64,000 bases of DNA from Alicyclobacillus tolerans (GTDB lineage: Bacteria > Bacillota > Bacilli > Alicyclobacillales > Alicyclobacillaceae), in NCBI RefSeq assembly GCF_001447355.1, contig NZ_JXBW01000010.1:1-64000 (forward strand). The letters run 5' to 3'. The notes beneath the pieces are model-generated. The model searched no databases. It worked only from the letters and a program-made list of their open reading frames with translations, and was not told where the DNA came from. Every line of letters starts with the position of its first letter. Position 1 is the first letter of the stretch. Positions 296-64,000 of the stretch are shown here, one piece after another. Position numbers and translations under genes: made by a program.

Positions 296-3200
296 TACAG
301 AGAGCCGGTGCCTGTCTCTTGTTCTGGCTCCACCCCAATAATCAATGACACATCGTGCTCGCGACCATCGTCGGCAAGCACCAAGTAATCCGTGGCCAGA
401 CTCTGTCCATCCAAAGTCCATAGACCAGCCGCCACATGCGCCTCAACGCCCGCCTCACACCGCACCCGAATTCGGTACGTCGCACTATGGTATCGATACG
501 CGATTGTAAACTCATCCCACTCAGGCGGCACACAAGGGCGTATATACAGCCGATCCGCCCGGCGAACAACCCCCAAGATAGCCTCCAGGCCAGCTTGATA
601 CATCCAACCGGCCGCCCCCGTGTACCACGACCACCCCGCGCGCCCCGGATGCGGGCTTGCGGTGTAGATATCGGCCGTCATGACATATGGCTCGTTGCCG
701 TATGTTTCGACCTCACGCCTGGTCTTCGTGTGGTGGATTGGATTAAGCATCGTAAACAACTCGTACGCCTTATCGCTTCGACCCAACCTCGCCCAGGCAA
801 CAATGCTCCAGATTACGCCATGGGTATATTGGCCGCCATTCTCGCGAATGCCAGGCGGGTATCCCTGGATATAACCTGGACTCGGATCTGTCGTATCAAA
901 CGCCGGGGTCAAAAGTCGCGCAACCTGCAAGCTCCTATCGACCAATTCGCGGTCGAACGACCGCATCGCTCGCTGTTGACGCTCTGGCGGCGCCGCACCT
1001 GAGATGACAGACCAAGATTGGGCGATGGCATCGATTCTGCATTCCCTGTCCACGATGGATCCGAGCCACCTGCCAGCATCGGTGAAAGCTCGGCGATACC
1101 ACACGCCATCCCACGCGTGTTCGTTGACATTGTGGGCCAATTGATCGCGCGCGTTCCGCAGGCGCGAGCGAATATCCGCGGTAAACACAGGGTCGTGCAA
1201 ATCGAGCATGCGGTTGATCACGTCGATCAAAAACCACGCAAGCCATACACTTTCTCCGCGTCCCTTGGCACCGACACGACTGAGTCCATCATTCCAGTCG
1301 CCGATGCCGATGAGCGGCAACCCATGTTCACCAAAGCGCAGTGCCCGCAGGACGGCACGCAGACAGTGTTCGGCAATCGTACCTGACGTATCACCGACCA
1401 CCGTGTCCTCATACCGTTCCAACTCATCTTCGGCGAGCGGTCGACTCGTGAGAAACGGAACGCGCACGGCGAGGATGGAATTGTCCCCGGTGTGCTCCAC
1501 ATAACGCGAGACCGCATACGGTAGCCACAGCAAATCGTCCGCAAACTTCGTGCGAATTCCTTTACCCGTTTCTTCGTGCCACCAATGTTGCACGTCGCCC
1601 GCTTCATACTGATGGCCAGCATTAAGAACGATTTGCGCCCGCAGATACGACGGATCCGCATGTAGGAGGGATAAGGCGTCTTGCAATTGGTCGCGAAAGC
1701 CGAATGCGCCTCCCGCTTGGTAAAACGCCGTGCGCGCCCATAAGCGGCACGCCAGAGCTTGGTACAAGAGCCACCCGTTCATCAGAATGTCAAACGATCT
1801 ATCCGGCGTCGCCACTTGCACTTTACCCAATGTCTCCTGCCAAAGCGCCGCTGTTTCCGCAAAGGCCTCTGCACACGCCAGCGGATCGCGATATGTCCGC
1901 ACCAGGTTACGCACCTCGTCCACTGATTCCGCGCAGCCTAAAAGAACGATAATCGTCGCTTCGCCTCCAGGCTGTATTTCGATCTCGCGCTTAACAACGC
2001 CGCAGGCATTGGGTACGGCGCCACCCTTCGCCGAGAAGTGTCGTTCAACGAGGCCGGCGGGGCGTGCAAACGAACCGGCGTCCCCAAAGAACCTGTCGCG
2101 ATCGGCCGTCCACTCCGGTTCGCCTAAGTGTTCACCCGCCATATGCAGGAACGCGATCGCGCTGCGAAATGCCTCTTGGTACGTGTTGCGGGCGACAAGT
2201 GTCGCACTTTCCTCGTCCCAATCACTGACCACGAACGAAGTCTGCCCCTCGCGTGTTACGCCCAGCACCCATTCCGCATAGTAGCTGATGGCCAGTCGCC
2301 TCGTTTGTTTGCTTGTGTTACGCACCACGAGGCGCATCAATTTGACTGGATCGCTTGTTGGAACGCCAATATCAAACGTCCATTCAATACTATCGGCTGT
2401 AGCAGCAAATCTCGTCCCACCAAAGCGGTGCGTCACCGTATATGTAAGCTGATTGCCCGCTGGCTTTGGCGTTGCGGACAGCAGCTGCCCTGTGTCGAGA
2501 TCGCGAATGTACAGACACTCTCCGGGCGGGTCCAACACGGGATCGTTATTCCATGGCGTCAACTTACACTCGCGGCTATTGCGCCACCAGGTGTAGCCTG
2601 TCCCCAGTTCCGTGATCAAGCATCCGAAGTGAGGATTGGCGATCACGTTCGTCCATGGACGCACCAAATGCGCCCCTGGCTGTACGCGGATTTGGTAGGC
2701 CGTGCCGCCGTCGACAAACGCGCCATACCCGTTCGCAAATTCGCCGTCGACATGGTGTGACAACTCCTTGCGCCGTTCGCGCAAAGACAGCGGTTTTCCG
2801 TCCAGGCGTTCCGTTTTTCCATCCGGCACGAGTTCGCGCAACTGCGCCGCCACGCTCGGTCCGCCTGCGCGCAGCCAAACCCTGACCACGGCAGCCAATA
2901 GCGTACGCTCTGCGCTCGACAACTGCTCCGACTTCAAAAATGCTACCCGCGTAAGTGGCGCGATGCCGCGGCGAGCGAGTGCATCGCGAATTTGATCGAC
3001 CAACGCATCATGATAGCCACCTTTCGTCTCGTCGATCACGGCGAGATCGACCGCTATACCTTGTCTGCACAAATACTGGTGCATGCGAGCCACGAGGACG
3101 ACAAACGACAAATCGGCAGGCGATGTAAAGCTGACCGCCAGAATGGGAACGTCACCGCCTAAGCCGTGAGCCCAGAGGGCTGACTGACCCAACGGATTCG

Positions 3201-4017
3201 CCTCGATGGCGCGCTTGCGTGCAGCAGGTAATGCGCTTGGCCGCAGCAAGTGTGCCGCAATTCGCTGGGCGTCAATACTCTGCTTGACCGAAAGATGCGC
3301 GTGACGCAAGTCGATTTGCGCACGCACCCAGGCGAGTTGGAATGCACGCTCGGCCTGGCGCGCCTCCCGCAACGCCGAGGCCGCAGCAAATGCATGCTCG
3401 CGCGCGTTGGCGACACTCGTCAGCGCGTAGAGCACGGCGCTTTCCCCTGGTCCAAGATGCAGGCGACGGCGGATGACGAATGCGGGATCCGCCACCGAGC
3501 CGGTCGTCCCAGCGAGCCGCCCGGCGAGCCCTTGCGGTGTGTCGAGCCCATTGCCGCGACCGATGAACGCTGCCCGATCCGTCTCGAACTCATACGGCTC
3601 ACCCTCGCGTTCCACCGCATACAAGGTATGAACAGCCCACACCTCGTCATCCTTGTCCGAACGACGGCGGCGCTTGGCAAACAAAAAGCCTGTTTGCTCA
3701 TCGTGTCCGGTCTCGACAAATAGTTTCGCGAAGGCTGGATGAGCCAAATCCGCGGCTGGATCAGCAAGGCACAACTCGACGAACGACGTCACTTCCAAGG
3801 TGCGCGGCCGCTCACTCGTATTTTTTAATTCGAGGCGGCGCAATTCGACATCCTGTTCGGGTGCGATCACGACGTCCAGCTTGCTTTCGATGTCTGCGAC
3901 ACAGCGCCGAAATTGCGACTTATCCGGGCGGAAACACACGTCGATGGGACCGCCGATGACAGCCGGATAGGCGGGGGCGGCCGGCGGTCGCACTCCAGGC
4001 GAGCTCGCTGTCGACAT
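295..4017 (-). pseudogene. Cyclic beta-1,2-glucan synthase, C-terminal half (GH94 phosphorylase part), frameshifted from the N-terminal half
   Basis: About 1240 residues matching the second half of NdvB/Cgs-type cyclic beta-1,2-glucan synthases: two beta-sandwich segments that recur in GH94 proteins, then an (alpha/alpha)6 barrel of the cellobiose phosphorylase family. The catalytic-acid motif GDWNDG lies near residue 890 and is intact. In the family this part controls chain length by phosphorolysis. The reading frame overlaps the upstream half by about 100 bases in another frame. Its first ATG (4017) has no ribosome site, and family-like sequence (DVCFRPDKSQFRR) begins right after the junction. 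Together the halves give about 2700 residues, close to the usual length of one polypeptide. It is either one gene interrupted by a frameshift, a sequencing error or, less likely, a programmed frameshift. Confidence 0.8.
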
Positions 4018-37230: not shown

Positions 37231-38115
37231 GTGGATCTGAAAAAGCTCCAGTACTTCGTCGCGATCGTCGAAGAAGGACAGATTACGAGAGCGGCCCAGC
37301 GACTCCATATGGCGCAGCCTCCACTTAGCCTGCAGCTACAGGCGTTGGAGCGAGAACTTGGGATACAACTGCTTGCGCGAAACCGCGGCAAGGTCGAACC
37401 GACTGAAGCAGGTTGGGCGCTGTATCGGCGTGCGCAGGAGATTTTGCGCTCGGTAGACAGCATGGTCAACGAAGTCAAGGAGCTTGGCGCCGGCGTGCGT
37501 GGCAAACTGACAATCGGCACCGTGATGTCCTGTGTGTCGTATTTGCCTGACACCATGCGCAAGTTTCAAGCTCGCTATCCGCAGGTGACGTTTGAATTGT
37601 GGGAAGGCGATTCATATCAAGTGGAAGAATGGCTGCGAACAGGCGTTATTGAGCTGGGCATCACGCGCCTGCCAGTGCTCTCCGACGTTGAGATCATACA
37701 CTTGCATACGGAACCCCTGGTCGCCGTACACCCCCCAGACTGGGGAGCTGAGCACGAGCGCCGCATCGGATTGTCAGAGTTCGCCGACAAACCGCTGCTC
37801 GTTTTACACAGCCATGGCGGCAGAGGCATTTATGAGATGTTCATCGAGATGTGTCAGGCACAAGGAGTCCACCCGAACATCATCTGCGAAAGCCCGGATG
37901 TGGCGACGCTCCTGACCTTAACCGAAGCAGGCATCGGCGTCGCCATCGTCCCTGCACTGGCCGTGCGTCTGCGGCCAGAAGGCGCTTTGCGTTACGGCGT
38001 AATCGAACCGACCATCGAGACCGACACGGCCGTGATCTGGTCAAAACAGCGCGCCCTAACCACGGCCGCAACCCATTTTCAAGAGATGCTCGTAGCGCAC
38101 GTCACAGGCTCTTGA
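37231..38115 (+). CDS. LysR-family transcriptional regulator
   Basis: 294 residues. The winged helix-turn-helix at residues 1-60 is typical (LKKLQYFVAIVEEGQITRAA, then QPPLSLQLQALERELGIQLL), followed by a linker helix and a two-lobe effector-binding domain (from about residue 90: GKLTIGTVMSCVSYLPD). A GTG at 37231, 6 bases after GGGGGTGA, is preferred to the upstream ATG. It is divergent from benE and probably controls benE and the luciferase-like gene. It may sense the transported acid (inference). Its last 37 bases overlap the end of the convergent metE gene. Confidence 0.88.
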   Translation: MDLKKLQYFVAIVEEGQITRAAQRLHMAQPPLSLQLQALERELGIQLLARNRGKVEPTEAGWALYRRAQEILRSVDSMVNEVKELGAGVRGKLTIGTVMSCVSYLPDTMRKFQARYPQVTFELWEGDSYQVEEWLRTGVIELGITRLPVLSDVEIIHLHTEPLVAVHPPDWGAEHERRIGLSEFADKPLLVLHSHGGRGIYEMFIEMCQAQGVHPNIICESPDVATLLTLTEAGIGVAIVPALAVRLRPEGALRYGVIEPTIETDTAVIWSKQRALTTAATHFQEMLVAHVTGS

Positions 38116-40376
38116 CGCAATTGTCGCGCTGCCATCACCATCGCCTGCAAAGCCGCCAGCGTCTCTGCCTCGCCACGGGTCTTCAGGCCACAATCCGGAT
38201 TGACCCAGAGTTGCGCCGGATCGATCACGCTGGCCGCCTTGCGCAACAATCCGACCATGTCATGGACATCGGGCACGCGCGGGCTGTGAATGTCGTAGAC
38301 GCCGGGCCCGATGTCGTTTGTGTACTGAAAGGCTTCAAACGCCTGTAACAATTCCATGTGCGATCTCGACGTTTCAATCGAAATGACATCGGCATCCATG
38401 GCTTGAATGGCAGGCATGATATCATGAAACTCGGCGTAACACATATGGGTATGGATTTGCGTCTCGTCTTTCACACCACTGGCCGCGATGTGAAAACATT
38501 CGACTGCCCACTCAAGGTAGGCGTCCCAGTCTGCCCGCCGCAAGGGCAAGCCTTCGCGCAAAGCCGGCTCGTCAATCTGAATGACACGAATCCCTGCCGC
38601 CTCTAAATCCAACACTTCATCGCGAATGGCGAGTGCAATCTGGCGACACACCTCATGGCGCGGCAAATCGTCGCGGACGAACGACCACTGCAGGATCGTG
38701 ACAGGACCGGTCAACATCCCCTTGACAGGCCGCTCTGTCAGCGATTGCGCATAACTCGTCCAACGGACAGTCATCGGCTCGGGACGCGCCACGTCGCCGA
38801 CGATAATAGGAGGTTTCACACAGCGCGATCCATAACTCTGCACCCAACCGTGCCGCGTAAACAAAAACCCGTCCAGCTTTTCGCCAAAGTGCTCTACCAT
38901 ATCGGTACGCTCAAACTCTCCGTGCACAAGCACGTCGAGACCAAGTTCTTCCTGAATGACGATCCAACGCATAATCTCGCCTTGCAAGAACAACTCGTAT
39001 TCCGCATCTGAAATTTGCCCCTTGCGCCACTTCGCCCGCGTGTCGCGCACAGATTGCGTTTGCGGAAACGAGCCGATGGTTGTCGTCGGAAACGGTGGCA
39101 ACTGCAGACGCTCCTGTTGCTTGGACTTGCGCTCTGCAAACGACGATGCGCGTGCCAATTGCAAACCGCTCAACTGCGCCATCCGTGTGGCGACAGCCGA
39201 ATTGCGCAAGCGTGGAGACGCCGTCCGTGCCCTGCGCGCCTCACGACTCAGAGCCAAATGCTCCGCAATCGCATCCTTACCGTCGTTCGCCCCGCGCTTA
39301 AGCACCCGCAACTCAGACAGCTTTTGCACAGCAAATGCCAGCCACGACTTCACCTCTGGTTCCATGTCGCTTTCCAATTCCACATCCCAAGGCGCGTGTA
39401 ACAGGGAACACGACGGCGCGACGTGAACCTGCTCAAGCCCGGCGATAGAAGCGGCCTGCTCAACGAGCACCAGAGCCTCGTGCAAATCGGCCCGCCATAT
39501 ATTGCGACCGTCGATCACGCCGACAGACAGCCGTTTCTCTTGAGGCCAGCCATAGCGCGCCAGCTCCGCCAACTGCTGCGGTGCACGAACGAGATCCAGA
39601 TGCAGACCCTGTACCGGTAGTGACAAAGCCGTCTCCAAATTGTCAGCGATGGAACCAAAATATGTGGTGAGCAACATGTTGGGCACCGACTGCGCCGCGA
39701 GGTACGTATACGCCTCGTGCAAGCTTGACCGCTCGCTATCCGTCAGATCGAGAACCAGGCAGGGCTCGTCGATTTGCACCCACTGTACCCCGGCATCGTG
39801 TAGAGCGTTAAGTAGCTCGCCATAAGCAGGTAATAGTTGGGCCATCAGGGACAAGGGCTCCACATTTTGTTCGCGCACCTTGCCAAGGCGCAAAAACGAT
39901 ACAGGACCTAAGAGCACCGGCACGGTCTCGATGCCCAGTTGCCGCGCTTCCAAATACTCGGCCAACGGTTTATTGGCTCGCAGCCTAAAGTTTTGTTGCG
40001 CTGAGAATTCAGGAACGAGGTAATGATAATTCGTGTCAAACCACTTGGTCATCTCAAGCGCTGCCACGCCCTCAGCACCGCGCGCCATGGCAAAATACTG
40101 CGCGAGCGAGCCATCTGGTAGCCCACGAAAGCGGTCAGGCACGGCGTCGAATAAAACAGCCATGTCGAGAACGTGATCGTAAAGCGAGAAATCGTTGGAT
40201 GGGATCCAGTCGATGCCCGCCTCCTTCTGCAGTTGCCAGCGCAGGCGCCTGATGTCGGCAGCCGCTTTGCCCAGCTCTGCCTCCGTCGACTTGCCTTGCC
40301 AGAACGATTCGAGTGCCCGCTTGAGTTCACGGCGCGGGCCCATGCGCGGAAATCCTAGTGTTGCTGCAATCGCCAA
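38079..40376 (-). CDS. metE: Cobalamin-independent methionine synthase
   Basis: 765 residues, normal for MetE, which transfers the methyl group of 5-methyltetrahydrofolate (polyglutamate) to homocysteine. Two TIM barrels are seen. The zinc site in the second barrel is intact: His and Cys in IHTHMCYAEF near residue 640, a Glu in between, and Cys in WVNPDCGLKTRG near residue 725. The N-terminal LGFPRMGPRRELKRALE is as in the family. The start is TTG, 10 bases after GGGGAGG. Upstream lie a terminator and a cobalamin riboswitch, so it should be shut off when vitamin B12 is plentiful and a B12-dependent synthase can take over. Confidence 0.95.
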   Translation of the reverse strand: MAIAATLGFPRMGPRRELKRALESFWQGKSTEAELGKAAADIRRLRWQLQKEAGIDWIPSNDFSLYDHVLDMAVLFDAVPDRFRGLPDGSLAQYFAMARGAEGVAALEMTKWFDTNYHYLVPEFSAQQNFRLRANKPLAEYLEARQLGIETVPVLLGPVSFLRLGKVREQNVEPLSLMAQLLPAYGELLNALHDAGVQWVQIDEPCLVLDLTDSERSSLHEAYTYLAAQSVPNMLLTTYFGSIADNLETALSLPVQGLHLDLVRAPQQLAELARYGWPQEKRLSVGVIDGRNIWRADLHEALVLVEQAASIAGLEQVHVAPSCSLLHAPWDVELESDMEPEVKSWLAFAVQKLSELRVLKRGANDGKDAIAEHLALSREARRARTASPRLRNSAVATRMAQLSGLQLARASSFAERKSKQQERLQLPPFPTTTIGSFPQTQSVRDTRAKWRKGQISDAEYELFLQGEIMRWIVIQEELGLDVLVHGEFERTDMVEHFGEKLDGFLFTRHGWVQSYGSRCVKPPIIVGDVARPEPMTVRWTSYAQSLTERPVKGMLTGPVTILQWSFVRDDLPRHEVCRQIALAIRDEVLDLEAAGIRVIQIDEPALREGLPLRRADWDAYLEWAVECFHIAASGVKDETQIHTHMCYAEFHDIMPAIQAMDADVISIETSRSHMELLQAFEAFQYTNDIGPGVYDIHSPRVPDVHDMVGLLRKAASVIDPAQLWVNPDCGLKTRGEAETLAALQAMVMAARQLRQEPVTCATSIS

Positions 40377-40465: not shown

Positions 40466-40577
40466 TGCATGGAGACTGGATATATAGGCAAGCGTTGCAG
40501 CCGACGTCAACACACACCGGCCAAGCAAACAATCCTGCTTCGTTCCTGCCCCAATCCCAAACCCACGTGGGATACAC

Positions 40578-40752
40578 AGAGCTGCTTCGCCTGGCAGGTC
40601 TTCGGACTCGGATGTCATCCGCTGTCGCACAGCCTTCCCCGCATCCAAGCGAGTGGCTCGCGGCCGATAAGCCGCAACGTCAACAGCGTCGTTCCTCACC
40701 GCGGCGGGACCGTTCCGGATTCGCACCGGATTCCCTTTTCATTCACCGTCGT
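40578..40752 (-). ncRNA. Cobalamin riboswitch (metE leader)
   Basis: Read on the minus strand, the conserved boxes are all present in order. GGGAATCCGGTGCGAATCC and ACGGTCCCGCC are the 5' part, followed by a variable region with GCCACTCGCTTGG, and then the B12 box AGTCCGAAGACCTGCCAG (complement of 40591-40608). A promoter lies upstream at 40788-40816, and the terminator at 40433-40465 lies downstream. The 467-base interval between metE and the S53 gene is thus explained: riboswitch, terminator and promoter, with no coding gene. Confidence 0.92.
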
Positions 40753-40787
40753 AGTGAAACCAAGCGAGCATATCAAGTTGTGGGGCT

Positions 40788-56714: not shown

Positions 56715-56996
56715 TCAATCGAGAGCCCGTTCTTTTAGGGGTTGTTCATGATTGACCAGTTCGCCCTTCCGATGCTGTTCAAGGGCGTTCCGTGCAAGAA
56801 CCTCAACGGGGTCGCATGCCTTGACCACGCGAAAGCTGTCCCCATCTAGATGTACACGCAATGTATCTCCGGGGCGAATGTTGAATTGGTCACGCGGTTC
56901 TTCCGGTAATGAAAAACGCACGCTGGTATGTGCGAAAATCCATGAATGGTAGGTTAACGGCGCGGGGATCGCTCGCAAATTCGAAGTCTCACGCAT
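56715..56996 (-). CDS. AbrB/SpoVT-like domain protein, possibly degenerate
   Basis: The frame holds VRFSLPEEPRDQFNIRPGDTL and VHLDGDSFRVVK, the swapped-hairpin AbrB/MazE pattern (S/TIPxEIRxxLxIxPGDxL). A helical tail of about 30 residues follows. No good ribosome site or start is visible. The frame can begin at 56996 (MRETSN) or internally, and before the conserved part it looks shifted. No toxin gene is next to it. Antitoxin, transition-state-type regulator or decayed remnant are all possible. It abuts the degenerate end of the CRISPR array. Confidence 0.4.
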   Translation of the reverse strand: MRETSNLRAIPAPLTYHSWIFAHTSVRFSLPEEPRDQFNIRPGDTLRVHLDGDSFRVVKACDPVEVLARNALEQHRKGELVNHEQPLKERALD

Positions 56997-57007
56997 GCAA
57001 ACACAAG

Positions 57008-60000
57008 TTACTGGGCATCTCACAAGCCTCGATGTGGTATGATCAATACGCGCGTTTCCTGCAACAAGTGCGTGTCATAGTTCCCCCACAAGCCTCGATG
57101 TGGTATGATCAGGATGTTGATAGTGCGCTACAACAGGCCGTCATAGTTCCCCCACAAGCCTCGATGTGGTATGATTCCATGCCAGCAAACCATCTCATCG
57201 ATTTGGTCATAGTTCCCTCACAAGCCTTGATGTGGTATGATCAATAATAATAGCCTTGATGAGTTCGTTTGGTAATAGTTCCCTCACAAGCCTCGATGTG
57301 GTACGATAGGTGTGACAATGACTTGCCATATAGGCTTGTCATAGTTCCCTAACAAGCCTCGATGTGGTATGATTCCATGCCAGCAAACCATCTCATCCAT
57401 TTGGTCATAGTTCCCTCACAAGCCTTGATGTGGTATGATCAATAATAATAGCCTTGATGAGTTCGTTTGGTAATAGTTCCCTCACAAGCCTCGATGTGGT
57501 ACGATAGGTGTGACAATGACTTGCCATATAGGCTTGTCATAGTTCCCTAACAAGCCTCGATGTGGTATGATGCTGCACTATAACTACTAATTAACTTTTT
57601 GCGTCATAGTTCCCTCACAAGCCTTGATGTGGTATGATCAATAATAATAGCCTTGATGAGTTCGTTTGGTCATAGTTCCCTCACAAGCCTCGATGTGGTA
57701 TGATGCGGAATTGCGCGATGCGCTCGTCAAGGTGGTCATAGTTCCCTCACAAGCCTCGATGTGGTATGACTGGACTCCACGAAAAACAGCGGACTGGCGA
57801 GTCATAGTCCCCTCAAAAGCCTCGATGTGGTATGATGACCGTCAATAGTCCTCCACTTCACAATAAGTCATAGTTCCCTCACAAGCCTCGATGTGGTATG
57901 ACTGGACTCCACGAAAAACAGCGGACTGGCGAGTCATAGTCCCCTCAAAAGCCTCGATGTGGTATGATGACCGTCAATCGTCCTCCACTTCACAATAAGT
58001 CATAGTTCCCTCACAAGCCTCGATGTGGTATGATTGGACTCCACGAAAAACAGCGGACTAGCGAGTCATAGTTCCCTCACAAGCCTCGATGTGGTATGAT
58101 CTTTGCCCCGTCTGTGTGGGCTTCGACTACGTCATAGTTCCCTCACAAGCCTCTATGTGGCATGATTTTAGAGATTGAAAGTCGAACTGATTTTAAGTCA
58201 TAGTTCCCTCACAGGCCTCGATGTGGTATGATTTTAGATATTGAAAGTCGAACTGATTTTAAGTCATAGTTCCCTCACAGGCCTCGATGTGGTATGATTT
58301 TAGCCCCGTCTGTGTGGGCTTCGACTACGTCATAGTGCCCTCACAAGCCTCGATGTGGCATGATAATACCAGCGCAAAACGTAACACAACAAGCGTCATA
58401 TTTCCCTCACAAGCCTCGACGTGGTATGATAATACCAGCGCAAAACGTAACACAACAAGCGTCATATTTCCCTCACAAGCCTCGATGGGGTATGATTTTC
58501 AAACACCGCACCATTGGCCACATTGTGTCATAGTTCCCTCAAAAGCCTCGATGTGGTATGATAATACCAGCGCACAACGTAACACAACAAGCGTCATAGT
58601 TCCCTCACAAGCCTCGATGTGGTATGATTTTCGAACACCGCACCATTGGCCACATTGTGTCATAGTTCCCTCACAAGCCTCGATGTGGTATGATCATACG
58701 GATGTGCGATATATGGCATGTTCGGTCATAGTTCCCTCACAAGCCTCGATGTGGTATGATTGGGAAGAGGTTAAATACGATGCGTCATGTGTCATAGTTC
58801 CCTCACAAGCCTCGATGTGGTATGATGGTACAGACTCACATGGAACAGGGATACATGTCATAGTTCCCTCACAAGCCTCGATGTGGTATGATTGGGAAGA
58901 GGTTAAATACGATGCGTCATGTGTCATAGTTCCCTCACAAGCCTCGATGTGGTATGATAACTGTCCAAATGAGATACGTCTTATCCGTGTCATAGTTCCC
59001 TCACAAGCCTCGATGTGGTATGATTTCAGAGAAGATTTCATCGTTCAACATATTGTCATAGTTCCCTCACAAGCCTCGATGTGGTATGATTCGAGATATT
59101 TAACCTTTGACATATCATAGGTCATAGTTCCCTCACAAGCCTCGATGTGGTATGATAAATGCCTTCGACTTTACCCCAACGAATAAGTCATAGTTCCCTC
59201 ACAAGCCTCGATGTGGTATGATAAATGCCTTCGATTTTACCCCAACGAATAAGTCATAGTTCCCTCACAAGCCTCGATGTGGTATGATATTGTAAAGGAT
59301 ACTTTATCATTTTATTTGGTCATAGTTCCCTCACAAGCCTAGATGTGGTATGATTGTGACGATAGGCGCGTGCTGCTTTTTTATGTCATAGTTCCCTCAC
59401 AAGCCTAGATGTGGTATGATTGTGACGATAGGCGCGTGCTGCTTTTTTATGTCATAGTTCCCTCACGAGCCTCGATGTGGTATGATGACATGGTCGCAAA
59501 TGTATAATATAGTGAGGTCATAGTTCCCTCACAAGCCTCGATGTGGTATGATTCATTCTCACTGTACGGTTTGCCTAGCAAGGTCATAGTTCCCTCACAA
59601 GCCTCGATGTGGTATGATGACATGGTCGCAAATGTATAATATAGTGAGGTCATAGTTCCCTCAAAAGCCTCGATGTGGTATGATATCAACACTGATTGAT
59701 TGTTACATAATTACGTCATAGTTCCCCCACAAGCCTCGATGTGGTATGATGACATGGTCGCAAATGTATAATATAGTGAGGTCATAGTTCCCTCAAAAGC
59801 CTCGATGTGGTATGATATCAACACTGATTGATTGTTACATAATTACGTCATAGTTCCCCCACAAGCCTCGATGTGGTATGATATCAACACTGATTGATTG
59901 TTACATAATTACGTCATAGTTCCCTCACAAGCCTCGATGTGGTATGATTCATTCTCGCTGTACGGTTTGCCTAGCAAGGTCATAGTTCCCTCACAAGCCT

Positions 60001-60608
60001 CGATGTGGTATGATTAAAACGTCTGACCGAACTTTTGACCACGAGTCATAGTTCCCTCACAAGCCTCGATGTGGTATGATCTGATGGAATTAACTGTTTA
60101 CGTTCATGGTGTCATAGTTCCCTCGCAAGCCTCGATGTGGTATGATTAAAACGTCTGACCGAACTGTTGACCACGAGTCATAGTTCCCTCACAAGCCTCG
60201 ATGTGGTATGATTACTTGCCGTTATCTGCGCCTAGAATTTTTGTCATAGTTCCCCCACAAGCCTCGATGTGGTATGATTTCCCCGCCCCTCCACCTCTCG
60301 GTGCTACGGTCATAGTTCCCTCACAAGCCTCGATGTGGTATGATTTCCCCGGCCCTCCACCTCTCGGTGCTACGGTCATAGTTCCCTCACAAGCCTCGAT
60401 GTGGTATGATTTCCCCGGCCCTCCACCTTTCGATGCTACGGTCATAGTTCCCTCACAAGCCTCGATGTGGTATGATCCAGCAAGGGAGGCTATATCAATA
60501 TTTGTTGTCATAGTTCCCTCACAAGCCTCGATGTGGTATGATCCAGCAAGGGAGGCTATATCAATATTTTTTGTCATAGTTCCCTCACAAGCCTCGATGT
60601 GGTATGAT
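57008..60608 (+). CRISPR. Type II-C CRISPR array, 55 repeats and 54 spacers
   Basis: 36-base repeats start GTCATAGTTCCCTCACAAGC and end CTCGATGTGGTATGAT. All spacers are 30 bases except the ninth (31, at 57572), so the period is 66 throughout. The repeat resembles that of Geobacillus type II-C systems (GTCATAGTTCCC...GGTATAAT). The first repeat (57008-57043) is degenerate in its first 11 bases. Many repeats carry single-base variants. The spacers form only 30 families; see the findings. The transcribed strand is taken as plus from the repeat orientation, the extended -10 (TGGTATGAT) at each repeat end and the terminator after the last repeat. Long open frames across the array on both strands are chance results of the 66-base period. 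Confidence 0.98.
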
Positions 60609-60661
60609 ACGTGATCGCTCAATCCCTTGTAGTATCAGGGGTTGGGCGATTACGTATTTTT
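60609..60661 (+). terminator. Intrinsic terminator right after the last CRISPR repeat
   Basis: ATACGTGATCGCTCAATCCC and GGGGTTGGGCGATTACGTAT form a long stem with few mismatches (60607-60655), followed by TTTTT. It fits the end of a plus-strand array transcript and starts within the last two bases of the repeat. Confidence 0.75.
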
Positions 60662-60708: not shown

Positions 60709-61029
60709 TTAAAAAAGCACCAACTGCTCACTTTGCATTCTCCGTTCATTAGGTGCATAGTTACCAACAAGAATTTTCATCCTCATGAACTGCTTTTCTG
60801 TGACCAGTAACGTTCGAATCGATCCTTTATCTGGTAAGTTCGCTTGAAGCCTCCTTTCGTGCTTTTCCGCCATCTCATAACTGCCGCAGATCCGACAGTA
60901 ACAAGAATACTGCATCATATAATACCCATCATTCAATAAAAATTGACGAAACCGAGTTGCAGCCTTTCTTTCCGCCTTTGTAGTCACTGGCAGATCAAAG
61001 AGCACCATCAAGCGCATAATCCTACTCAT
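60709..61029 (-). CDS. cas2: CRISPR-associated endonuclease Cas2
   Basis: 106 residues with the ferredoxin-like Cas2 fold. The catalytic-type Asp is in LMVLFDLPVTT, and RFRQFLLNDGYYMMQYS is the second conserved strand-helix region. Cas2 forms the spacer-integration complex with Cas1. The start was set at the ATG that overlaps the cas1 end by 8 bases, after GGGGGTCT. A start three codons later (MRLMV) is possible. The frame upstream of this ATG is out of place inside cas1. Confidence 0.92.
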   Translation of the reverse strand: MSRIMRLMVLFDLPVTTKAERKAATRFRQFLLNDGYYMMQYSCYCRICGSYEMAEKHERRLQANLPDKGSIRTLLVTEKQFMRMKILVGNYAPNERRMQSEQLVLF

Positions 61030-61945
61030 AGACCCCCATTTGAACCTCCGTAAGCCTCGGCAACTGTAAAGCACTTGGATCTTCGGTTGAAATCGCATTT
61101 GAAAAGCTGGAGACCATCGCTTCAATGCTTGCGGTCAGGTCGTATCGCTCGTTTTCCAGCCAAACCATCTGAGTGAGAATCTGCATCAATCTCCGCTTAT
61201 GTAGCTTCGAAAGTATGGGAGAGTCAACGTCGAGCTCGGACGCCACAACATAATCCACAATAGGCCGATATGGCTCCATAAGGTCGTCAGCAAGGTTAAA
61301 ATTATTGAGCTCGCTGTGATGTTGTAATCCAATGGATGGTTGAAATCCAAACGCACACAAACTTCTTGCAACTTGTCCACGAATCAATGCATATCCGTAG
61401 TTCATCGCTGAGTTAATGAAGTCATCCGAGCTACGCTTGAACGCTTTACCAAACAGATGCTTAAAGTACATTCGTGCGGCTTGGGATTCAATAGATCCCT
61501 TATCCCCAGATGCCACGCGGCCCGCAAGCGCTAACAGAGCTTCATCACCACTGCACCCACATAAAGTTAAACACGCGGCTTGATTCTCGATTTTGCGACG
61601 CACAACAGCCTGCCACAATCGCTTCACGAGTGGCCGCTTCATCTCAAGCTGGGATTGCATGATTTTTGGTCCTCGCGAATGCTGACAGTACGGTAGAAGT
61701 ACGCCGTTTGGTAAATGTTTTTCATCGCAAGTAAACACTGCAATTCGAAATTCGGCCAATCTGGCCAGGAGGGCCGACGTGATAATACTCTGTCGGTCCT
61801 CCAGCATGAGGGTGCGAATGTCCTCCAGAGGAATGGTGTATTCGCACGTTTCTCCAGAGGATTCGTCCTCTTGTCGCACGACAAGCTGGTTATTTCGACA
61901 ACTCAGCTTGGCACTGCGAGTGACCATCACATGTCGATGTGACAA
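61022..61945 (-). CDS. cas1: CRISPR-associated endonuclease Cas1, type II
   Basis: 307 residues. The N-terminal beta domain (TRSAKLSCRNNQLVV, then DIRTLMLEDRQSIIT) is typical of type II-C Cas1. The metal site is formed by Glu in GSIESQAARMYF, His in HSELNNFNLADD and Asp in the following helix. It integrates new spacers with Cas2. The gene begins with a TTG directly after the cas9 stop (TGATTG), preceded by AAGGAAG, and overlaps cas2 by 8 bases, so the three are one operon. Confidence 0.95.
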   Translation of the reverse strand: MSHRHVMVTRSAKLSCRNNQLVVRQEDESSGETCEYTIPLEDIRTLMLEDRQSIITSALLARLAEFRIAVFTCDEKHLPNGVLLPYCQHSRGPKIMQSQLEMKRPLVKRLWQAVVRRKIENQAACLTLCGCSGDEALLALAGRVASGDKGSIESQAARMYFKHLFGKAFKRSSDDFINSAMNYGYALIRGQVARSLCAFGFQPSIGLQHHSELNNFNLADDLMEPYRPIVDYVVASELDVDSPILSKLHKRRLMQILTQMVWLENERYDLTASIEAMVSSFSNAISTEDPSALQLPRLTEVQMGVYE

Positions 61946-64000
61946 TCAATTCATCTTCCTTTCCACACGAAATGGCATGCGCCGTTCCTTATAAACAGGA
62001 TGCGTGTCTCCTAACGGACCAACAACGTATTTTTCGAACACCTCTAGACCTTGTATACCCAAACCCTTCAGTTCTCCAGAATTGTCGTGCGTACGCAGAG
62101 TTAAAGTAGCGCCTGAAATATCCGCACCCGCAAAATACATCAGTCGTAATCCAACAGGTTCCTTCCTGTCCTTATAAGTTATATCCACTTCCCTACTAGG
62201 TTTAATCATCACCGCGTCGTTTGGATATAAGCTAAATTTAAATTGATAGCTATCATCCACAACTCTCCACTCGGAGTACGGCTTGTGCGCAGTGGCTAGG
62301 CGATTCGGAAGTTCCCGCTTCAGTACATCTGCGACATAAATCGGTACAAAGTAATACTTTCCGTCTTTTGCAAACACATCAATTCTCACCATTCCCCCAT
62401 TCTCTGCGATGCCTCGTCCGCCATGAACAGGTACACCGAGCGTCAACTTTTCTTGAATCTTGACCTTCCTAACGGGTGTTCGCACACTACCGTCCTTCGA
62501 AATCTTGTAAACAGGTTCTTTAAAAGCAGCCTTCGCATCGCCGCCAAATTGAACAAGCCTTTCGCGCAGAGTGTTGTACAATCTAGGATCATCTTCCGGT
62601 CGGAAATAATCCTTAATCTCCCCATCCTTTGTGAGCTTGAGTTCGGTAAGAGCCACCTTTGAAACCACGACCTGAATCTCTGTGCCCTTATTATCATCGA
62701 CTTTCACGATACGCGGGCTACGAATCGTCTCCTTGTGAGCCGCGCCCGTGACCTTCCTTGTCGGCATTCTCGAGACAAAGATAGGATCAATTTGCTCGGT
62801 TTCCGAATAGGTTAAGAGGCCAATAGCTCGTATATTTTTGCTAGGATCGTCGCTGAGTCTTGCCAACAGCTCGTCTCGAAAGAATGGCCAGGGCTCCAAA
62901 GGTTCGTTTGGGAGAAACTTGCGTTCGTCAAATGATTCCCACGTGAACACCTCACCCGTCTCTTTATCCACATATTGCGTGATGCCTTCGCTTTTGCTGA
63001 CCTGCTGCACATACCGGTTGCGATCGGCGAGCGCATTGCGCTTAAATTTGTCATACTTCGTGACGCGTTGAATAAGCGAATCTCCGATGCACGCAACAAC
63101 AACTGCATCGGCCGCATGGTGCTTATCACCGGCATTCCGATCCTTCGTCAATCCCCACCGCGCTCGCATATATGCCGTAACGGCGCCATTGACACAAACC
63201 ACACGCTTTGACCGCGTGGAAGCCGTTTCGTCAAATAACAACCATGCCTGAATGTGATTCATCAAAGCCCTGGTGATGTACCGCGTGTCCGAAAGATTTC
63301 TCTCGCGAAATCCTTCTTGTTCCAAATCGATCGCGCGCTTGTCCATTAACAAATGGTTCTTCTTCTTTTGCGACAATGGGATACTTTCTACCAACGCTAT
63401 AAACTTTGCCTTCTGCTCTGGCTTATCTCGCAGATACTCCAATGGCGTTCGGTTCCCCTTCTGACGATTTTGCTCCGTCTTGACAAGAACCTTGTTGTCA
63501 TAGCTATCGTCAAATGAAATCCCATACGGGATGATGTGATCCACTTCGGCGTAACCTGGCTCGAATAGACGTGTGACGTCCAACTTTTCCCCAGAATACA
63601 TGCAGAATTCCTGCTGCTGCTTGAATAGCTTGTACTTCACAATGTCTCGTCCGGTAACATGCGCACTTCCAAGAATCTCACGAATCTCGTCCTTGATCTG
63701 CTCGTTATTTTTTTGGTTTTCCTTCTGAGCCTTCTCAATTTTACGCCGCTCATCCAGATTCTTGGATAGCTCCCGGGCAAGCTCGATGTGAATAGATTCG
63801 GGCGAACCATGCTTGCGGATGACCGCATTCACAACTTTGATGGCCTGTGAAAGGGCACGCCGCACCACCGGATTGGTCACTTCTCCTTCACCCAAAGGTG
63901 GCAAAAGCCTCTGTTTTACGTACTCTGTTTTCCCTTGAAACTGATACCCAGCCAGCTCGCAGGCTACATCATAGCTGTAGCCATCCTCTAAGAACGGAAG
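61946..64000 (-). CDS. cas9: Cas9 endonuclease, type II-C (C-terminal 684 residues; N-terminus beyond the window)
   Basis: The frame stays open to the window edge, so the beginning is missing. The visible part starts in the region before RuvC-II. RuvC-II is SIHIELAREL, the HNH domain has EVDHIIPYGISFDDSYDNK with CMYSGEKL before it, and RuvC-III is DKHHAADAVVVAC. The PAM-interacting C-terminal part has PIFVSRMPTRKVTGAAH, FEKYVVGPLG and related strands. Catalytic residues are intact. The text is close to GeoCas9 of Geobacillus as I recall it (for example ACELAGY upstream, VDHVIPYSRSLDDSYTNK in HNH). The operon order cas9-cas1-cas2 without csn2 or cas4 defines subtype II-C. Confidence 0.95.
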   Translation of the reverse strand, partial: LPFLEDGYSYDVACELAGYQFQGKTEYVKQRLLPPLGEGEVTNPVVRRALSQAIKVVNAVIRKHGSPESIHIELARELSKNLDERRKIEKAQKENQKNNEQIKDEIREILGSAHVTGRDIVKYKLFKQQQEFCMYSGEKLDVTRLFEPGYAEVDHIIPYGISFDDSYDNKVLVKTEQNRQKGNRTPLEYLRDKPEQKAKFIALVESIPLSQKKKNHLLMDKRAIDLEQEGFRERNLSDTRYITRALMNHIQAWLLFDETASTRSKRVVCVNGAVTAYMRARWGLTKDRNAGDKHHAADAVVVACIGDSLIQRVTKYDKFKRNALADRNRYVQQVSKSEGITQYVDKETGEVFTWESFDERKFLPNEPLEPWPFFRDELLARLSDDPSKNIRAIGLLTYSETEQIDPIFVSRMPTRKVTGAAHKETIRSPRIVKVDDNKGTEIQVVVSKVALTELKLTKDGEIKDYFRPEDDPRLYNTLRERLVQFGGDAKAAFKEPVYKISKDGSVRTPVRKVKIQEKLTLGVPVHGGRGIAENGGMVRIDVFAKDGKYYFVPIYVADVLKRELPNRLATAHKPYSEWRVVDDSYQFKFSLYPNDAVMIKPSREVDITYKDRKEPVGLRLMYFAGADISGATLTLRTHDNSGELKGLGIQGLEVFEKYVVGPLGDTHPVYKERRMPFRVERKMN

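Follow-up and report, generated by a model that had tools for sequence, protein, structure and literature searches.

How a CRISPR array of 54 spacers came to hold so many copies of the same spacers is the question raised by a locus of Alicyclobacillus tolerans. The window, i.e., the whole stretch of DNA analyzed, comprises 64,000 nucleotides of contig NZ_JXBW01000010.1, within which the array lies close to the 3′ end. No description of this array was found among the titles and abstracts of the matches listed in the open-licence literature.

Array Organization and Spacer Families

57008..60608, + strand: CRISPR array, assigned to type II-C; 55 repeats, 54 spacers, 30 families
57008..57043, + strand: degenerate terminal repeat at the cas-distal 5′ end, probably the old one; 8 mismatches to the consensus

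The repeats are 36 bp long (consensus GTCATAGTTCCCTCACAAGCCTCGATGTGGTATGAT), and the spacers measure 30 nt in 53 cases and 31 nt in one. Clustering placed the spacers into 30 families (12 single, 12 double, and 6 triple), which agrees with an earlier note, made by reading the letters, that had counted 54 spacers and 30 families, 18 of them occurring two or three times. From 5′ to 3′, the family order is ABCDECDEFDGHIHIHJKKJLLMLMNOPOQRSTTUVVWXWYWYYXZaZbcccdd. The 30 same-family pairs comprise 14 identical pairs, 13 with one difference, 2 with two, and 1 with three; since spacers of different families differ at 12 or more positions, the families are not an effect of the clustering threshold. Among the 18 families with more than one member, 12 show sequence differences between copies (C, H, I, J, K, L, M, T, X, Z, c, and d), the same number as in the earlier note, whose "one or a few bases" proved to be one to three. 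Altogether, 24/54 spacers (44%) are redundant, and 30/55 repeats depart from the consensus (29/53 when internal repeats are counted).

Cas Genes and Flanking Features

60709..61125, − strand: cas2, ORF as listed; TIGR01573, E = 1.7e-21, residues 37–138 matched
61022..61945, − strand: cas1 of type II (cas1_NMENI); TIGR03639, E = 5.5e-84, 281.7 bits against a cut-off of 120
61946..64000 and on past the window, − strand: cas9, 1146 aa, open; coding start at contig position 65386
60606..60658, + strand: hairpin of 23 pairs, −34.8 kcal/mol, leading into a T-run; starts in the final three bases of the last repeat

The genes cas2, cas1, and cas9 lie consecutively beside the array, all on the − strand and with open frames; the true start of cas2 probably lies inside the listed ORF. 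Neither csn2 nor cas4 was present among the four neighbors scanned with Pfam (DabA, NuoL-like, DUF3870, and a weak MazE match). A repeat-like stretch located 75 bp upstream of cas9 (contig 65461–65496) is identical to the repeat at 30/36 positions; it is, as expected, a putative tracrRNA anti-repeat, whose sense is right if the tracrRNA runs with cas9. Judged by the order cas9–cas1–cas2, the type II Cas1, and this putative anti-repeat, the locus is a type II-C CRISPR-Cas system. In the parts of two reports that were available, II-C systems resemble it in the order cas9–cas1–cas2, in a mutated oldest repeat, and in repeats ending in TGGTATGAT; those parts do not describe internal duplication on the present scale (PMC12080349, PMC12638026). 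The AtCas9 of A. tengchongensis is reported to be 1147 aa long with the PAM N4C or N4RNNA (PMC10707453).

Several neighboring features were noted in passing. Within the cas9 gene, positions 62057–62297 (coding nucleotides 3090–3330) account for 27 of the 63 nucleotides at which the gene differs from that of A. hesperidum DSM 12489; this C-terminal patch probably belongs to the PAM-interacting domain, and recombination or a change of PAM specificity between close strains is possible. The tracrRNA/cas9 end is adjoined by DabA (PF10070) and a NuoL-like gene (L009 5126–9474, contig 65625–69973), a pair likely to serve inorganic-carbon uptake. At the other end of the array, a MazE/AbrB-like ORF (56715–57023, − strand; 21.1 bits, below the Pfam cut-off of 24.7) overlaps with its start the first degenerate repeat. 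Farther off in the window, a cobalamin riboswitch (40576–40778, − strand) stands just upstream of an ORF (38079–40376) which we take to be metE-like, an arrangement as for a B12-repressed methionine synthase.

Orientation and Growth of the Array

The number of variant repeats in each successive nine, from repeat 2 to repeat 55 in the 5′ to 3′ direction, falls unevenly (9, 6, 5, 2, 5, 2). In the related array of A. sacchari, the sole variant repeat is the first, and II-C systems are reported to acquire spacers at the 3′ end (PMC12638026, PMC12080349). Together, these three points make growth at the cas side likely; the array thus probably grows at its cas-proximal 3′ end, a point absent from the earlier note. 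The hairpin at 60606–60658 is likely, by its predicted fold and position, to be both a terminator and the flank of the acquisition end. At the equivalent place, A. sacchari carries a hairpin of other sequence and like shape (L023 6670–6728, − strand, −43.4 kcal/mol). The hairpin of the present array looks stronger than a terminator requires.

Linked Repeat Variants and Segmental Duplication

57201..57373, + strand: C-D-E segment, copy 1; 173 bp exact, with C23T, C3A+T33C, and C14A in common
57399..57571, + strand: C-D-E segment, copy 2; exact 173-bp repeat of copy 1
57735..57846, + strand: H-I segment, copy 1; 112 bp exact, with T36C and T9C+C16A in common
57867..57978, + strand: H-I segment, copy 2; exact repeat of copy 1
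58299..58328, + strand: spacer J, copy 2; first 5 nt as in K, remainder as in J; A18G repeat before it
59319..59466, + strand: tandem V-V units with a common C23A repeat; 82 bp exact, offset 66
59596..59750, + strand: W-Y segment, copy 1; 155 bp exact, with C16A and T13C repeats
59728..59882, + strand: W-Y segment, copy 2; overlaps copy 1 (tandem duplication)
60243..60572, + strand: c-c′-c″-d-d′, probably the youngest part; repeats consensus except the first, copies 1–3 bases apart

Rare repeat variants accompany the spacer copies. The variant C23T (CCTTGATG) precedes all three copies of spacer 4, C3A and T33C (GTAATAG and GGTACGAT) follow two of them, C14A (CCCTAACAAG) follows spacers 5 and 8, and T36C (GGTATGAC) precedes spacers 12 and 14. 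The earlier note had offered these variants and the duplicated spacers as examples of co-travelling units, and every example was correct. Its proposed check, the co-segregation of repeat and spacer variants, gave a result beyond what shuffling produces: in 13/30 same-family pairs, both copies are flanked on the same side by the same non-consensus variant, against means of 1.4 after shuffling throughout and 3.1 after shuffling confined to blocks of 8, and 0/20,000 shuffles reached 13 in either scheme. The linked pairs belong to 11 of the 18 families with more than one copy (C, D, E, H, I, J, K, L, V, W, and Y). Five of the 17 unlinked pairs have consensus repeats only and are uninformative, which leaves 12 informative ones; among all informative pairs, linkage is found in 9/13 identical and 4/12 variant pairs (Fisher p = 0.12). 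In C, I, and K, a point change separates copies whose repeats are linked.

The arrangement of the copies adds to this picture. Their mean spacing is 2.4 units, compared with 18.3 when labels are shuffled, and the blocks CDE, HI, LM, and WY recur in order, giving 6 repeated bigrams versus 2.0 expected when units are displaced at random by at most four positions (p = 0.01). The series C-[C23T]-D-[C3A,T33C]-E-[C14A] occurs twice. Because each uptake duplicates the repeat at the end where spacers enter, the process cannot generate this alternation, and on such alternating rare repeat variants, renewed uptake as the sole explanation was rejected for the 11 families. Segmental duplication is thus well supported for these families. 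The earlier note had argued for segmental recombination rather than repeated uptake throughout the array, and this part of its claim holds for 11/18 families. For the others (M, O, T, X, Z, c, and d), whose flanking repeats are consensus or bear unshared variants, we infer segmental duplication as well, with renewed uptake as a possible alternative.

The second copy of spacer J starts with TTTAG as does its neighbor K, and the A18G repeat before it is that of the second copy of K. A recombination junction inside the spacer, a few bases past the repeat, would probably account for this mosaic; the two differences could also be chance mutations.

Possible Renewed Uptake and the Search for Protospacers

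A mixed origin was weighed for the remaining variants, in which the identical linked copies arose by duplication and the unlinked variants (T, X, Z, c, d, and perhaps H′, L′, and M′) were taken up again from drifting viruses at positions fixed by the PAM. The unlinked state of 8/12 informative variant pairs speaks for it, as do the exact 30-nt register of the copies and the contrast in the young half between seven changes in spacers and unchanged repeat ends; even copy numbers and the mirror order J K K′ J′, which requires extra deletions under the duplication model, also fit. However, C, I, and K changed between linked copies, the mix of transitions and transversions in spacers is like that in repeats, and the PAM-proximal excess predicted by escape is not seen, with 4/15 changes in positions 21–30 where 5 are expected. 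Nor was a protospacer found for any spacer searched, and we regard renewed uptake of these variants as unlikely, though it retains some weight. Escape-driven spacer variants as such were rejected, the changed positions being spread along the spacer.

The protospacer searches relied largely on BLAST of 30-base spacers in a long query, which is insensitive to several mismatches. With phages, the only hits at E = 1 were six Synechococcus phage records, judged to be chance, and the plasmid search returned no protospacer. Among 41 family genomes, the organism's own included, 20 gave some match at E up to 1; besides the array itself, the related array, the shared terminal repeat, and anti-repeats, these matches were short, with E of at least 0.0165, and were judged to be chance. 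Six scans of viral contigs, covering families c, d, Z, H, M, and X out of the 30, yielded no exact match of 20–21 bases.

Drift in Spacer Copies and Repeats

When each spacer copy is compared with its nearest earlier copy, 15 substitutions (7 transitions and 8 transversions) and 0 length changes are counted. Repeats 2–55 hold 22 change events (12 transitions and 10 transversions), where a variant recurring within four units is scored as one event. Changes per base amount to 0.022 in spacer copies of the older half and 0.019 in those of the younger half, and to 0.019 in older-half repeats; in younger-half repeats, the value is 0.017 at positions 13–24 and 0 elsewhere, or 0.006 overall, and the rates can be said to agree only within roughly a factor of two, since the spacer comparison sums two lineages while repeats are scored against the consensus. 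Similar rates in spacer copies and in unconstrained repeat positions fit drift after duplication, and the "followed by mutation" of the earlier note accords with them. The overall gap in the younger half (repeats 0.006 versus spacers 0.019) fits drift only if the repeat ends are constrained.

Such a constraint is suggested by the location of the changes. All 6/6 repeat events of the younger half fall in positions 13–24 (p = 0.0014, for a window picked after seeing the data), compared with 7/16 in the older half (Fisher p = 0.046 for the difference between halves), where changes strike every part of the repeat. The repeat ends presumably contain the crRNA handle, and the end TGGTATGAT, by its sequence, presumably resembles an extended −10 promoter motif. 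II-C repeats carry promoters, as stated in two reports (PMC12080349, PMC12638026). The young units thus seem to retain their function, with similar drift in the spacer copies and in the middle of the repeat.

Synonymous divergence from A. hesperidum is 0.024 in cas1, 0.018 in dabA, and 0.048 in cas9; the divergence of about 2% between spacer copies is similar, so the array is probably old. In cas1, dN is 0.0014, giving a dN/dS of about 0.06 from 6 differences, which suggests that the Cas1 protein changes slowly. A mismatch-repair mutator is not indicated, as mutS and mutL, the only mutator genes examined, are both present in frames without stops.

A dying array, in which acquisition has been lost and the repeats evolve as a plain satellite, could also produce such variation, and the variant repeats (29/53 internal ones here versus 0/52 in A. 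sacchari) and the old-half changes in all parts of the repeat point that way. Yet the cas1, cas2, and cas9 frames are open, the dN/dS of cas1 is low, and the young-half repeat events all avoid both repeat ends. Furthermore, a decayed locus (L090, with a partial cas1 containing stops) has 16/33 variant repeats by a 25-bp consensus but only 2/34 redundant spacers; repeat decay alone thus need not bring duplication, and we consider a dying array improbable.

Comparison with Other Arrays and Relatives

The comparison set consisted of loci around type II cas1 genes, 36 (L023 and L058–L092) plus 11 more, cut at 20 kb or at contig ends and processed with the same script. Of these loci, 32/36 and 8/11 contained arrays with four repeats or more; after a 20-bp tandem repeat in L087, judged non-CRISPR, and L091, a duplicate of L090, were dropped, 44 arrays remained, which include type II-A and some others as well as doubtful repeat borders in L097 and L100. 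By the same rule, 15/1,027 of their spacers are redundant versus 24/54 here, and the word "unusual" in the earlier note is justified. Any redundancy was confined to 6/44 arrays (L064, L066, L068, L090, L103, and L104), the worst being L064 with 6/61 redundant spacers in one exact six-unit block. This 61-spacer array of another Bacilli genome (L064 11440–15502) has its block G–L recurring 19 units on.

A repeat-spacer-repeat query against 61 genomes gave two other matches, A. hesperidum DSM 12489 (Cas1 99–100% identical, flanks 98.8 and 99.4% identical) and A. sacchari DSM 17974 (Cas1 93% identical). The array of A. sacchari resembles the present one in locus, repeat family, and hairpin place; however, its spacers are unique in 53/53 cases and its internal repeats variant in 0/52, in contrast to 24/54 redundant spacers and 29/53 variant repeats here. 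In A. hesperidum (G003), a second Cas1-like match was observed within a 563-aa open frame (C50:865–1566), while the genome of the studied array gave a single match with the type II cas1 model under an E limit of 1e-20.

An assembly artefact, in which the draft merged or expanded copies or mixed strains, would also yield a redundant array. The genome is indeed a draft of 55 contigs (2.81 Mb), the longest exact repeats of the array measure 173 and 155 bp, and the assembly of A. hesperidum DSM 12489 lacks the array, its contigs breaking off on both sides; the degenerate terminal repeat recurs there in the same sequence, and the contig ends 5 bases on. However, assemblers mostly collapse repeats and rarely expand them, and many copies bear differences of their own and are therefore not products of simple expansion. 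Moreover, completeness is 99.79% and contamination 0.09%, and a copy divergence of about 2% seems excessive for one culture. An artefact is accordingly extremely improbable in our view; reads or pairs must have spanned the exact repeats of 173 and 155 bp, and certainty about copy number is lowest for the W-Y unit.

Internal duplication is a known kind of event. In the CRISPR1 array of S. agalactiae (II-A), the reported duplications span one or several units, lie side by side or apart, and are explained by slipped misalignment; a duplication is present in 73 isolates (35.6%; PMC5641575), and 25/450 spacers are stated to vary by one or two bases (PMC4466440). The likeness to the present array lies in these unit duplications and occasional one- or two-base spacer variants; there, however, changes between isolates span one to five units and internal repeats are nearly invariant, with SNPs in 6 isolates among 2,727 repeats, whereas here 24/54 spacers are redundant and 29/53 internal repeats variant. 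SpacerPlacer, applied to CRISPRCasdb, is reported to have marked 805/24,090 spacers (3.3%) as duplication candidates, with replication misalignment as the cause, and faster loss of duplicated spacers by slippage is deemed conceivable there (PMC11472070). That 3.3% stands against 44% here, although the measures differ, as theirs compares groups of arrays (PMC11472070). The distinctive point here is the degree, together with drift in both repeats and spacers.

Evenness of Copy Numbers

Simulations in which blocks were duplicated and deleted at random were filtered for runs with 35–53% redundancy; in these, the commonest family averages 4.6–7.6 copies and 34–52% of families are multi-copy, compared with a maximum of 3 copies and 60% observed. 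Three copies at most together with at least 55% multi-copy families occurred in no kept run of the seven usable settings, five further settings having kept too few runs, and in 0.5–3.8% of kept runs under twelve settings of single-pass stutter. In an earlier duplication/deletion set, the two features taken singly appeared in 0–19% and 0–20% of runs, and the first version of the simulation had scored redundancy, distance, and maximum only. Adding copy loss failed to bring the evenness back. The models tried (random tandem duplication/deletion, bursts, copy loss, protected loss, and single-pass stutter), all of them crude and unfitted, seldom or never gave even copy numbers and were set aside. 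Copy numbers are thus more even than random duplication/deletion models give, which the earlier note had not foreseen. Duplication that is limited in copy number and acts across the locus, possibly with renewed uptake, might keep two to three variant guides per target, a very improbable idea in our estimate; if true, the even copying of most spacers, often with about one changed base, would be no random decay but a crude diversification of guides against drifting viruses.

Origin of the Array and Its Significance

The array is probably best understood as a long-lived II-C array built in part by normal uptake and to a large extent by the duplication of one- to three-unit blocks within it, followed by neutral point mutation. 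Spacers copied along with rare repeat variants, the short distance between copies, and the similar substitution rates speak for this directly. In the proposed sequence of events, new spacers would be taken up, probably at the 3′ end next to the cas genes, and segments comprising one, two, or three repeat-spacer units would duplicate internally by exchange between the 36-bp repeats, either through unequal recombination or crossing-over or through replication slippage. The copies would afterwards acquire point mutations at an ordinary neutral rate, and exact copies may be lost again by slippage while diverged copies persist.

CRISPR arrays are read as time-ordered records of infection; in this one, almost half of the entries appear to be copies made within the array, and many spacer variants appear to be local mutations. 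Spacer counts, apparent repeat infections, and mismatches between spacers and viruses would therefore mislead if they were taken at face value in such an array. Since repeats and spacers both vary, duplication, drift, and loss can be traced unit by unit in this array.
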